From Clostridiaceae bacterium (GTDB lineage Bacteria > Bacillota > Clostridia > Acetivibrionales > DUMC01), in assembly GCA_012840075.1 (NCBI GenBank), contig DUMC01000147.1, positions 1-55,798 on the forward strand: a DNA stretch of 55,798 nt, given 5' to 3'. The notes under the pieces are model-generated. The model ran no database searches, was not told the DNA's origin, and worked only from the letters and a program-made list of their open reading frames with translations. The position numbers and the translations under genes were made by a program. Below, in pieces: positions 36,065-40,200 of this stretch (its first letter is position 1; every line of letters begins with the position of its first letter).

Positions 36065-36140
36065 GCGCCATTAGCTCAGCTGGTAGAGCACCTGACTCTT
36101 AATCAGGGTGTCCGGGGTTCGAGCCCCTGATGGCGCACCA
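36065..36140 (+). tRNA. tRNA-Lys (anticodon CTT)
   Basis: The 76-nt gene folds into a complete cloverleaf. The acceptor stem is GCGCCAT/ATGGCGC, the D-loop region TAGCTCAGCTGGTAGAGCA, the anticodon stem CCTGA/TCAGG with loop CTCTTAA (anticodon CTT), and the T-arm GGGGTTCGAGCCCC. CCA is encoded (36138-36140). The 3' end borders a degraded prophage, so it is a likely former attachment site. Confidence 0.97.
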
Positions 36141-36144
36141 AATA

Positions 36145-36180
36145 AAAAGCCGCTAAACGTTAAGTTTAGCGGCTTTTGCG
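36145..36180 (+). terminator. Rho-independent terminator of tRNA-Lys
   Basis: AAAAGCCGCTAAAC and GTTTAGCGGCTTTT form a perfect 14-bp stem around GTTAA, beginning 5 nt after the CCA end and ending in TTTT. Confidence 0.88.
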
Positions 36181-36215
36181 TTTTCATAGAGTATGGTTTT
36201 AAAGAGTTAAAAGCA

Positions 36216-36365
36216 CTAAAAAGTTGTGAATTCTTTCATGATACTTACAGTATGTCCCATAATTTCGGCTTCTGAAACTTCATCAACTCCAGCATCATAC
36301 AAAGCTGTGCAAAATGTATGACGTAACAACCCGCAGGTCAGATTAAGAGGTTCAGTACTGGAGGT
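36216..36365 (-). pseudogene. Tyrosine recombinase (phage/ICE integrase), C-terminal remnant
   Basis: Read on the minus strand, 49 codons between stops encode EPLNLTCGLLRHTFCTALYD ... EIMGHTVSIMKEFTTF. LRHTF is the Arg-His box and IMGH the second His motif of tyrosine recombinases. The catalytic Tyr expected about ten residues after IMGHT is missing because the frame ends at TAG. The N-terminal three quarters are gone. Position directly behind a tRNA gene is where such integrases sit. Further minus-strand scraps with multiple stops continue to about 36550. Confidence 0.72.
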
Positions 36366-36659: not shown

Positions 36660-36848
36660 ATGAAAAACGACTTTACAGAAGCTTTAAATTAGCCCGTAGG
36701 AATATGTAATCAGAATGAAGATATGAATGACTGTTTTAAATGGCAGGACAGATATCCAAATTCTTGCTGCTGGCTGTCATGCAGCCAACTATGCGGGACA
36801 GCATGTTGCATAGCTAATACATGTTTTGGAGAAAAATGCAAATATTAA
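36660..36848 (+). CDS. Cysteine-rich micro-ORF with an in-frame TAG
   Basis: From ATG 36660 (preceded by AGAGGATAGAG) ten codons run into TAG at 36690, and the same frame then continues to TAA at 36846. Initiation at ATG 36723 would give a 41-residue peptide, MNDCFKWQDRY ... FGEKCKY, with nine cysteines (including two CC pairs). The Cys density suggests a zinc-binding or disulfide-rich phage protein. I do not recognise the family. It lies 46 bp before the candidate annealing protein, in the prophage remnant. Either the long form is a nonsense pseudogene or only the short form is made. Confidence 0.4.
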
Positions 36849-36894
36849 AAAGCAGAGGAACATTAGAATTTCAGGATAATAAGGAGGGTTTAAT

Positions 36895-37752
36895 ATGTCA
36901 GATCCCTTTGTTGTAGATGTAAATGTACAAAATCGAAATGAAGATAGTAACGTCATAGCACAAGCAATGTCAAGCAGATATATTCAAGAAGTCCAAGGCA
37001 TGATAATCATGGCAAAAAAATTTCCCAGGGATCAATTTGCAGCTTATAACCGCATCATGGAGGCTTGCAAAAGAAAGTCATTAGCTGAAGTTGCTCAATA
37101 TGAGTTCCCCAGAGGAGGAGAAAAGGTTACTGGTCCTTCTATCCGCTTAGCAGAAGTATTAGCGCAAAACTGGGGAAACATTTCAACTGGCATCATTGAG
37201 TTAGAACAAAACTATGGCGAAAGCAAAGTTATGGCTTTTGCTTGGGACTTGGAAACAAATTATCGTGAAGAAAGAATTTTCACAGTAAAACATGAGCGGA
37301 AAGCTAAAGGTGTTATTAAAAAGCTTGATGATCCAAGAGATATTTACGAGCTAGTTGCCAATTTGGGAGCTAGACGTAAAAGGTCCTGTATTCTTGCAGT
37401 TATACCCAAAGATATTGTTGAAGCTGCAGAAGCTCAATGTGAAGAGACATTGAAAAAAAGCAATGCTGGAAAACCATTAGTTGATAGAATCAGAGATATG
37501 TTTGCAAAATTCCAGGCAGATTTCGGTGTAACTAAAGACATGATTGAAGAATTCATCGGTTGTAGAGCTGAAGCTTTCACAGAGAGAGACATTCTGCGTC
37601 TGGGAAGAGTATACAACTCTCTTAGGGACGGTATGGCTAAGAGAGAAGATTTTTTCAATGTCAAAGCAACTTCCCCTGAGCCTGAAAAAGCAGAAGCTTT
37701 AAAGAAAGACCTGGCAGGTGAGGGGATAGAAGTTATAGGAGATGAGATTTAA
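36895..37752 (+). CDS. Phage protein, candidate single-strand annealing recombinase
   Basis: The 285-residue protein starts after AAGGAGGG. A helical N-terminus (QAMSSRYIQEVQGMIIMAKKF) leads to the highly patterned core ACKRKSLAEVAQYEFPRGG, GPSIRLAEVLAQNWGNI, VMAFAWDLETN and IYELVANLGARRKRSCILAV. The C-terminus is helical and charged. I know this kind of protein from phage early regions but not a proven function. The next gene, overlapping by 1 bp, is a RecE-type PD-(D/E)XK exonuclease. The partner of such a nuclease is normally a RecT/Erf-type annealing protein, so that role is inferred from context. It appears intact despite decay around it. Confidence 0.6.
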   Translation: MSDPFVVDVNVQNRNEDSNVIAQAMSSRYIQEVQGMIIMAKKFPRDQFAAYNRIMEACKRKSLAEVAQYEFPRGGEKVTGPSIRLAEVLAQNWGNISTGIIELEQNYGESKVMAFAWDLETNYREERIFTVKHERKAKGVIKKLDDPRDIYELVANLGARRKRSCILAVIPKDIVEAAEAQCEETLKKSNAGKPLVDRIRDMFAKFQADFGVTKDMIEEFIGCRAEAFTERDILRLGRVYNSLRDGMAKREDFFNVKATSPEPEKAEALKKDLAGEGIEVIGDEI

Positions 37753-38540
37753 TGCTGCAGCTAACAGCCGAGAATTATTATTCCCTGGAAGCAGATCAAG
37801 AATATATGTCATATTCTCAATATAAAGAATTCCGAGACTGTGAAGCACGAGCAATGGCCAAAGTATGGGGAGGGTGGGAAGAACCGCCTTCCCAGGCCCT
37901 ACTTGTAGGAGGATATATACATGCATATTTTGATGGAACATTGAAAAATTTCATGGTAGAACATCCGGAAATATTTAGAAAAGATGGTAACTTGAAAGCT
38001 GAATACAAAGTGGCTGATAAAATGATTGATACTATTCTGAAGGATGAAATGTGCATGGCTGCTTTGGAAGGTGAAAAAGAAAAAATTATTGTTTTCGAAT
38101 TCGGTGGCTGTATGTGGAAGATGAAAACAGATGTTTTGAACTTAGAAAAAAGAAGAATTGTTGACATGAAAAACATTTCAGAACTAGGAGAAAAAGTTTG
38201 GAACAATGAAAAAAGATATTATGAGTTATGGTTAGAAGCATACGGTTACATAGGACAAATGGCGCTATATCAAAAGGGCGTACAAATAGCTTACAACATT
38301 CTAGTTGAGCCTATCATTTTGGCAGTTACAAAACAAGACCCACCTAATAAAGCTCTTATTTACTTCGACGATGACAGGCTAAACTGGGAGCTTTCACAAA
38401 TTATATTTCATCTTCCTAGAGTGCTTGCAGTAAAAAATGGCCAAGAAAAACCAAGACGATGTGAAATGTGTAAATACTGCAGAGAGACTAAAAAACTAAG
38501 AGAAGTAATGCACTACAGTGAGTTGTATCAATACATGTAA
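37752..38540 (+). CDS. Phage PD-(D/E)XK exonuclease (RecE/DUF3799-like)
   Basis: The 262-residue protein overlaps the upstream stop by one base (TAATG). SYSQYKEFRDCEARAMAKVWG and LLVGGYIHAYFDG are the opening of PDDEXK exonucleases of temperate phages. The nuclease core is visible as WKMKTDVLN (Asp) followed by RIVDMKN (Asp-x-Lys). The QMALYQKG helix and a cysteine group RCEMCKYCRETK near the end, probably metal-binding, also fit. Such enzymes resect DNA ends for a phage annealing protein. The frame is complete, unlike its downstream neighbours. Confidence 0.75.
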   Translation: MLQLTAENYYSLEADQEYMSYSQYKEFRDCEARAMAKVWGGWEEPPSQALLVGGYIHAYFDGTLKNFMVEHPEIFRKDGNLKAEYKVADKMIDTILKDEMCMAALEGEKEKIIVFEFGGCMWKMKTDVLNLEKRRIVDMKNISELGEKVWNNEKRYYELWLEAYGYIGQMALYQKGVQIAYNILVEPIILAVTKQDPPNKALIYFDDDRLNWELSQIIFHLPRVLAVKNGQEKPRRCEMCKYCRETKKLREVMHYSELYQYM

Positions 38541-38600: not shown

Positions 38601-38768
38601 ATGTGCCAAACTGAAGTCCCAAAAATAAAAAATACTTATTATTTTTCTCATAACACAAATGCTAGGTGTGATCCGAAAATTTTAGCTCTAAGAAACAAGT
38701 ATGGAGCATGAGGATATGCATGGTATTTCATGATATATAGAGATTTTAGCAGAACAAAAATATTATAA
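38601..38768 (+). pseudogene. DUF4373-type phage replication protein, N-terminal remnant
   Basis: From ATG 38601 the frame gives YYFSHNTNARCDPKILALRN and KYGA, then TGA at 38709, then GYAWYFMIYRDF and TAA. The pattern YF-x-H-x-x-NAR-x-DPKILALR-x-KYG-x-x-GY is the start of the DUF4373 (Lin1244/Lin1753) domain found before dnaC in phage replication modules. One nonsense codon and loss of everything after about 55 codons make it a pseudogene. Confidence 0.6.
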
Positions 38769-38805: not shown

Positions 38806-39129
38806 ATGGAGTTGCTATCGAAACTGTCGACACACGAACGTCTAATATTAACACACAATTTAATCAAAAAAAGGATGAAGAGTCATTTAAACTTAATGGA
38901 TGTAAACTTTCGTAAATGCACATTTGAAAACTGGGAAACGGACGAACACAATGAGAAGCTATACAAGATAGATATTCGATATTGTGAGAAATGCGAAAAA
39001 ATGAAGCGAAATAATATAGGTCTACTTCTTTATGGACCATCCGGTACAGGAAAGTCATATCTTAGCTTTTGTGGTGCAAATAGATTATTACAGAATTTTG
39101 TACCAGTCATTGCAATATCTATAATATAA
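38806..39129 (+). pseudogene. DnaC-type helicase loader, truncated
   Basis: 107 residues of a protein normally about 270-330 long. FRKCTFENWETD and the Walker A motif LLLYGPSGTGKSYLSFCGAN match DnaC/IstB-type ATPases, but Walker B and the rest are missing. The frame ends at about the point where a mobile-element end begins (39130-39138), so insertion followed by deletion is the likely cause. Confidence 0.7.
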
Positions 39130-39262: not shown

Positions 39263-39690
39263 ATTTTTATTGAGGAATTGGACGAACAGCAAGCATATGA
39301 CCTTAAAAGATTAGGTTATAAGAGTTTAAACCTAGAAACCAATGGAGGATATGAGTTGTTTATAAAATAAATGAAAAATATCCGAGCTTATCTACGTCTG
39401 ATAAAATTGTTATATCTATTGCATATGAAAAAGGAATAATTTGCTGTACAAACGACAAAAATGCACGAAAAGCATGTGAACAAATGGGGATAGAGTATGC
39501 AGGGACTCTAGGAATTTTATTTTGTGCTTTTGAGTATAAAATTATAGATAAAAATTGCCTTTCAAATTTATTGTTTAAGTATGAAAATGAAAGTAGTGCT
39601 CATATAAAACCATCTATTATTCAGACGATCCGCAAATTATATGGTATTCTAGATAATACTTGTGTACATAATCATAATAATGTAGTATGA
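39263..39690 (+). pseudogene. PIN-domain (DUF3368-like) gene, truncated and frameshifted
   Basis: One frame gives FIEELDEQQAYDLKRLGY to a stop at 39367. A shifted frame continues NEKYPSLSTSDKIVISIAYEKGIICCTNDKNARK, then MGIEYAGTLGILFCAFEY, to TGA at 39688. STSD-x-x-x-x-SIAYE, CTNDK-x-AR and GTLGIL are the PIN-like pattern of DUF3368 proteins, often VapC-type toxins. The 5' part is cut off by the mobile-element end and no antitoxin gene is visible. Confidence 0.55.
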
Positions 39691-39833: not shown

Positions 39834-40200
39834 GTGCATCACGTAATAGGTGGCAGAGGGTACAGTCTATAGTGGGAATTTGAAAAGAGCAGCTATAAAA
39901 CCATTTTTTCGAATCTTATCCAGTTTTCGTTAGTGTTTTGTAGAAGATTTATGCCTATAAGATTGTATTTCAATTGTGGATTTAAACTGGTACGATTCAC
40001 CTCCTCTAAAAGATAGCCAGAGGAACACAATTCATTCGTCAGTCTTTTGTTGTGTACCCGGCATGGATGGTAACTAGGCGGTGAAAGTTCGCGTCTAACA
40101 TTATCCGAACTCCGTTCAGTAAATCTAGCAGATATATGAGATAAATCTAGCATATATATGAGATAAAGCTACCGCTCTTTCCCGGGGAGGTTTCAAGAAT
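39834..40200 (+). ncRNA. Group II intron 5' RNA domain, degenerate, without its protein gene
   Basis: From GTGCATC at 39834 the stretch follows the order I know for bacterial group II introns (class C type): GGGTACAGTCTATAG near the start, AGAGGAACACAATTCAT (about 40018), GCATGGATGGTAACTAGG with GGTGAAAGTTCGCG (about 40060), TATCCGAACTCCGTTCAGTAAAT, and CTCTTTCCCGGGGAGGT (40171-40190), which normally lies before the reverse transcriptase gene. No reverse transcriptase or 3' domains follow. An 86-codon minus-strand frame inside is not a gene. A 22-bp duplication lies at about 40122-40165. Confidence 0.55.

Follow-up and report, generated by a model that had tools for sequence, protein, structure and literature searches.

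A pair of overlapping genes in the window (i.e., the entire 55,798-nucleotide stretch of Clostridiaceae DNA analyzed here) raises the question of whether a 285-residue protein encoded directly ahead of an exonuclease is a single-strand annealing protein (SSAP) and, if so, whether it belongs to any annealing family already described. The features that bear on this question are collected in Table 1, and the evidence is drawn from sequence profiles, a predicted structure and a survey of the gene neighborhoods of relatives.

Table 1. Features of the annealing-protein/exonuclease locus and its flanks (window positions).
Feature	Position	Strand	Basis
tRNA-Lys (CTT), probable prophage attachment site	36065..36140	+	ARAGORN
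Tyrosine integrase C-terminal fragment (pseudogene)	36219..36329	-	PF00589 1.7e-4, below gathering cut-off; LRHTF and MGHT motifs
Shine-Dalgarno AAGGAGG of annealing-protein gene	36881..36887	+	Direct reading; 7 bases upstream of ATG
Predicted single-strand annealing protein gene (phrog_3657)	36895..37752	+	285 aa, ATG start
Predicted Rad52/RecT-like core domain, residues 20-192	36952..37470	+	AF2 core model, structural alignment, invariant columns
Small C-terminal helical domain, ~residues 195-254	37477..37656	+	Helices 195-210, 214-221, 230-244 and 250-253 in model
RecE-type PD-(D/E)XK exonuclease, DUF3799 / phrog_1227, 262 aa	37752..38540	+	Profiles, conserved residues
Lin1244/DnaD-like phage replication gene fragment (pseudogene)	38601..38711	+	Lin1244_N 0.0089, below cut-off
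Truncated DnaC-like helicase loader	38806..39129	+	phrog_50 1.3e-18, profile 321-405 of 570; NF005992 5.3e-25

The gene pair and its decayed surroundings

The TAA stop codon of the first gene occupies positions 37750-37752 and the ATG of the second occupies positions 37752-37754, so that the last A of one codon is the first base of the other; the one-base overlap reported in a preliminary description of this DNA is thus confirmed by the coordinates of the two genes. The motifs singled out in that description (FPRGG, GPSIRLAE, WGN, AWDLETN and NLGARRKR) are all present in the 285-residue protein and are among the best-conserved stretches of 89 aligned relatives. The protein matches phrog_3657 at 1e-106, with residues 12-274 aligned to positions 13-273 of a 289-position profile, and PHROGs labels this family as “unknown function”. 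At 66 strongly conserved positions, the window protein deviates nowhere, the median for its relatives being a single deviation. Immediately 5′ of its gene lies a 41-residue, cysteine-rich ORF (MNDCFKWQDRYPNSCCWLSCSQLCGTACCIANTCFGEKCKY; 36723-36848, plus strand) that matches nothing in Pfam and has no relative among the loci retrieved.

The 262-residue product of the second gene matches Pfam DUF3799 (2.3e-71) and the PHROGs “exonuclease” family phrog_1227 (1.8e-87), with a weaker match to exonuclease VIII (1.9e-9), and it resembles the solved “putative exonuclease” 3L0A throughout (1.7e-49). Residues G53, D127, D138-x-K140, Q169, Y173 and C237/C240/C243, each at least 90% conserved among 55 relatives, are intact in the window nuclease, and the PD-(D/E)XK residues among them (D127, D138-x-K140 and Q169) join the profile match in assigning the protein to DUF3799. 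The nuclease shows no deviation at 17 strongly conserved positions, which is also the median for its relatives.

The tRNA-Lys(CTT) gene and the minus-strand integrase fragment (36065-36329) together form the left boundary of a decayed prophage; the tRNA is probably the attachment site, judging from the adjoining integrase fragment, and no flanking att repeats were found around the prophage remnant. On the other side of the pair, tblastn with phage DnaD-type ORFs produced matches to positions 38616-38756, down to 1.6e-12. Farther right, beyond the DnaC fragment, a 68-residue ORF (39484-39690, plus strand) has a weak match to DUF3368 (0.0046, below cut-off), and a 22-nt tandem duplication (95% identical) occupies positions 40120-40163, in the interval that separates the DnaC fragment from the next host gene.

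Within this degraded prophage, only the annealing-protein and exonuclease genes are intact (36895-38540, as against their flanks). The window pair sits whole inside a decayed prophage at tRNA-Lys, and elsewhere the genome has no match to phrog_3657 or DUF3799. It is possible that the pair has been retained by the host.

Sequence comparisons and the predicted fold

As judged from sequence, phrog_3657 falls outside every curated SSAP family tested. For the 285-residue protein, Pfam offers nothing at E ≤ 1 and NCBIfam nothing above its cut-off, and no PDB sequence matches it. Nothing significant came from hmmscan or from phmmer/hmmsearch runs on PDB sequences, and the PDB likewise yielded no credible match to a profile built from 89 relatives. 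Specifically, Pfam did not connect the protein with RecT/Red-β (PF03837), with Erf (PF04404), which is also without a match elsewhere in the genome, or with Sak4/RecA-type P-loop SSAPs (PF13479); AAA_24 matches of this genome sit on other contigs. Neither Pfam nor our own HMMs linked it to Rad52_Rad22 (PF04098) or to Sak3/SSAP_Sak (PF06378). Moreover, our HMMs for RecT, Erf, Sak3 and Rad52 matched no ORF in 169 loci, and a Rad52-type alignment scanned over viral contigs found no relatives. The earlier placement of the protein outside the known annealing families is borne out, at the level of sequence, by the missing Pfam matches and by the silence of all four HMMs.

Profile-profile comparison by hhalign with RecT (alignments of 11-16 sequences), Erf (40), Rad52 (4) and Sak3 (7) gave no significant link, with reversed-alignment controls scoring alike; the known SSAP families failed to find each other by the same means, and the test therefore has too little power. 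A resemblance between the C-terminal helical domain and the C-terminus of Erf was set aside as non-significant (hhalign E 0.005, probability 8%).

An AlphaFold2 (AF2) model of the 285-residue protein, built on the 89 relatives, reached a pLDDT of 90.0; when the core (residues 20-192) was modeled alone, the value was 92.7. The modeled core comprises helices 47-58 and 61-66, strands 68-73 and 76-81, helix 83-93, strands 96-106, 109-118 and 123-132, and helix 147-169, which correspond in turn to α1, a β-hairpin (68-81), α2 (83-93), a sheet (96-132) and α3 (147-169). The Rad52 SSAP fold is described as α1, a β-hairpin, α2, a three-stranded sheet and α3 (PMC9870868; also PMC11783212), and this five-element order is found in the predicted structure of both the whole protein and the core alone.

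Foldseek candidates were re-aligned with VIA-align. The top six rows were all RAD52 (Z 6.0-6.6, with 128-141 residues aligned), and the other SSAP-type rows were Mgm101 (Z 5.3), Red-β (5.2), Gp77 (5.0), which we take to be an SSAP-like phage protein, and A118 RecT (4.0). The core-only model repeated this picture, with RAD52 on top and Mgm101, Gp77 and Red-β present; over the two comparisons, the four SSAP-type proteins other than RAD52 scored about 4.0-5.5. All of these Z scores are below 8 and unrelated LptE lipoproteins reach 5.0-5.6, so that Z alone would not be proof; the case for a Rad52-like fold, which is a predicted one, rests on the order of the elements, the alignment of the whole core and the joint appearance of RAD52, Mgm101, Red-β and RecT. 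In BFVD, a collection of predicted viral structures, relatives came first, followed by named matches that were mostly Erf, Rad52, SSAP or recombination proteins. Plain Foldseek against the PDB returned no SSAP among the top 50, and Foldseek has been reported as unable to connect the known SSAP families (PMC11783212). Porphobilinogen deaminase and similar weak PDB matches from Foldseek were rejected because their TM was ~0.3 or less. Of the profile and structure comparison proposed in the preliminary description as a check, then, the structural half gave a predicted element order like that of the superfamily and modest matches to solved members (Z 4-6.6, with LptE up to 5.6), and the profile half yielded no significant link, just as it left the known families unlinked.

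Residues R160, R161 and R163 are invariant among the 89 aligned relatives and lie on α3. In the Rad52 superfamily, α3 packs across the sheet and the two together form the DNA-binding surface; in the model, the three arginines would be suitably placed to contribute to DNA binding. The C-terminal helical domain, in turn, may serve in binding the partner or DNA.

Gene neighbors, partner exchange and distribution

Among 88 non-redundant relatives (<82% mutual identity), a DUF3799 gene sits beside 78, being directly downstream in 74 cases, mostly with an overlap, and directly upstream in four. A YqaJ exonuclease gene is found upstream in three relatives and a metallo-β-lactamase (MBL)-fold gene downstream in five, such that 86 of the 88 have one of these neighbors and two have none. 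The linkage to exonucleases that the preliminary description had thought worth surveying is thus seen both with DUF3799 and with YqaJ. Pfam confirmed examples of each neighbor type, together with a DUF1351 gene and a single-strand-binding protein (SSB) gene adjoining members; several phrog_3657 loci encode an SSB as a separate gene. Dozens of phages and prophages carry the same pair, which therefore does not represent a chance coincidence of ORFs. The earlier view of an annealing protein paired with a RecE-type nuclease is very probably correct, considering the predicted fold and the neighbors together.

The same set of neighbors, namely DUF3799, YqaJ, DUF1351, SSB and lactamase-B2 genes, has been described for recT/red-β of Firmicutes (PMC8093625). 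The DUF3799 nuclease family overlaps or adjoins PF03837 RecT in phages PG1, PLE3, LF1, Javan549 and CHPC930, and the window nuclease is 34-40% identical to the RecT-overlapping nucleases of PG1, LF1 and CHPC930. The MBL-fold family of phrog_3657 loci also occurs beside RecT in four independent Clostridia loci (L176, L177, L179 and L180). The presence of the same DUF3799 and MBL partners beside both phrog_3657 and RecT therefore argues for an exchange of the annealing core, with the partners staying in place. Six loci (L151, L154, L155, L135, L150 and L088) have no recognized exonuclease and an MBL-fold gene downstream, some with DUF1351-type genes upstream. The MBL-fold gene may be the missing nuclease of such exonuclease-less annealing-protein modules.

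Exchange is also apparent at the C-terminus. Gp57 of phage Sparky (L171) has a phrog_3657 core (7.2e-107) followed by a C-terminal stretch that matches RecT-like phrog_4171, and it shares a compact C-terminal domain of ~96 residues (41% identity, 1e-17) with gp43 of Angel (L299), a phrog_4171 protein whose adjacent gp42 is a DUF3799 protein by Pfam. A RecE/exonuclease VIII-type gene adjoins both gp57 and gp43. A single C-terminal module is thus attached to either kind of core. The species to which Angel is assigned is Mycobacterium virus Halo, and Halo proteins have been used in mycobacterial recombineering, where they were reported to be active according to a citation in PMC3695502.

Relatives turned up both on viral contigs and in bacterial genomes, among them those of Bacilli, Clostridia and Pasteurellaceae. 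The family occurs in 81 phage records, including phages of Mycobacterium, Gordonia, Rhodococcus, Acinetobacter, Bordetella, Pseudomonas, Vibrio and Yersinia; a few plasmid records contain it too. The idea of a recombinase particular to Clostridia is accordingly not supported, as the family spans Bacilli, Clostridia, Actinobacteria and Proteobacteria, and within the window's class it was present in just two of the 381 genomes sampled, one being the window's own. Nor is the family new to science, as had been proposed, for it already exists as phrog_3657, and members from Mycobacterium and Gordonia phages have been deposited as “RecT-like ssDNA binding protein” or “RecT”. Most members are deposited as hypothetical proteins; those labeled RecT-like, RecT or ssDNA binding protein, in Mycobacterium abscessus prophages, Sparky and Gordonia phage Mutzi, adjoin a gene called RecE. 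Among the phage records listed, the RecT-like label is confined to actinobacterial members, where it is simply the deposited name.

A literature search on phrog 3657 and on Gp77/RAZR found no paper. Seven Firmicutes SSAP families have been named in one study (PMC8093625) and five families of the Rad52 superfamily in another (PMC11783212), and phrog_3657 is absent from both sets. The family is already catalogued and partly named RecT-like in GenBank, and, as far as we found, it is undescribed as an SSAP family. The fold model suggests that it represents a widespread branch of the Rad52/RecT annealing proteins that has yet to receive a name.

Weighing the readings, and likeness to known systems

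We consider it highly probable, with the modeled fold as part of the case, that the 285-residue protein is a phage SSAP of the Rad52/RecT/Erf superfamily, belonging to its own family, phrog_3657, and forming a two-component recombinase with its DUF3799 partner. Such a recombinase would presumably operate as follows. The DUF3799 exonuclease would resect linear double-stranded DNA from its 5′ ends, i.e., with 5′-3′ polarity, exposing 3′ single strands on which the annealing protein would multimerize; the single-stranded DNA would be held in a groove formed by the three-stranded sheet, α3 (with R160, R161 and R163) and the β-hairpin, and the bound strand would then be annealed to its complement. 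A physical partnership between the two proteins would be in keeping with this scheme.

An alternative is that the protein is a strongly diverged member of RecT/Red-β and not a separate family. This reading can draw on the neighbors that phrog_3657 has in common with RecT, on the tail domain held in common with RecT-like gp43 and on an overlay by eye of the G-x-R-R...P of α3 on the A-x-K-T...P of RecT, the last being our own inference. We regard it as unlikely, however, given the lack of any PF03837 match at E ≤ 1, an HMM for RecT that finds no relatives, a profile comparison with RecT that is not significant and a predicted structure nearer to RAD52 (Z 6.0-6.6) than to RecT (4.0). Less plausible still is a Rad52-type DNA binder with some other role, such as a mediator, end-protection or exonuclease-loading factor that does not anneal on its own. 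The C-terminal helical domain could conceivably be a partner-binding module in such a factor, but the phrog_3657 protein takes the exact slot of RecT, in loci where the HMMs found no RecT, Erf, Sak3 or Rad52 and where, in several instances, an SSB is encoded separately; this makes the reading very improbable.

A different kind of doubt concerns this particular genome, where the pair could be no more than the inactive remains of a dead prophage. The integrase, DnaD-like and DnaC-like neighbors are all fragments, and the pair supplies the genome's sole matches to both families, as would suit a relic; on the other hand, both ORFs are full length, with no deviation at any of the 66 + 17 conserved positions, and the active-site residues are intact, all of which leaves inertness a somewhat doubtful explanation. 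At the opposite extreme stands the proposition that the Rad52 superfamily has a sixth, sequence-independent family in phrog_3657, distributed across several bacterial phyla, and that this host has kept the pair as a working recombinase after the prophage decayed, a combination that we regard as speculative and rather improbable.

The preferred reading, that of a phage SSAP with a cognate exonuclease, has several consequences. Pfam, NCBIfam and PHROGs give phrog_3657 no function, and pipelines built on them therefore miss the recombinase of these phages. If active, members of the family would provide a recombineering panel with cognate exonucleases for Bacilli, Clostridia, Actinobacteria, Pasteurellaceae and Acinetobacter, and a phrog_3657 annealing protein could be tried as a genome-editing tool. 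Moreover, the exchange of partners between RecT and phrog_3657 illustrates how phages swap annealing cores and keep nuclease and C-terminal modules.

Among known systems, the broadest likeness is to the Rad52 SSAP superfamily (RAD52, Mgm101, Red-β, RecT, Erf and Sak3), which has the same five-element order as that predicted here and supplies the best structural matches, and whose phage members occupy the same exonuclease/SSB/replication neighborhood. Unlike those proteins, phrog_3657 has no significant sequence similarity to the superfamily and only modest Z scores (4-6.6), and the 285-residue protein possesses an extra small β-hairpin (134-143) before α3 as well as invariant motifs of its own. 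At the level of the gene pair, the RecT + DUF3799 modules (Lp_0641-42, PG1, PLE3, LF1 and CHPC930) have the same nuclease family, gene order and overlapping or tightly spaced genes, and differ in that the annealing protein is a PF03837 RecT, by our own tests for the phages and by the paper's description for Lp_0641. Membership of Lp_0641 in phrog_3657, through which the family would already have a tested member, was set aside: the paper gives it 46% identity to the RecT of Lactobacillus reuteri (PMC4595204), and the annealing proteins beside DUF3799 in the Lactobacillus phages checked are PF03837, so that Lp_0641 is treated as RecT, by description only. The Halo/Angel gp42-gp43 pair has a DUF3799-type partner like that of the window pair, and its gp43 carries the C-terminal domain also found in Sparky gp57; its core, in contrast, is phrog_4171, which the phrog_3657 HMM misses, and the window protein has no long tail. 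By analogy, the nearest functional precedent for the window pair would be Lp_0641/Lp_0642 of Lactobacillus plantarum, in which Lp_0642, a DUF3799 protein, supports double-strand DNA recombineering together with the overlapping, RecT-type Lp_0641 (PMC4595204).
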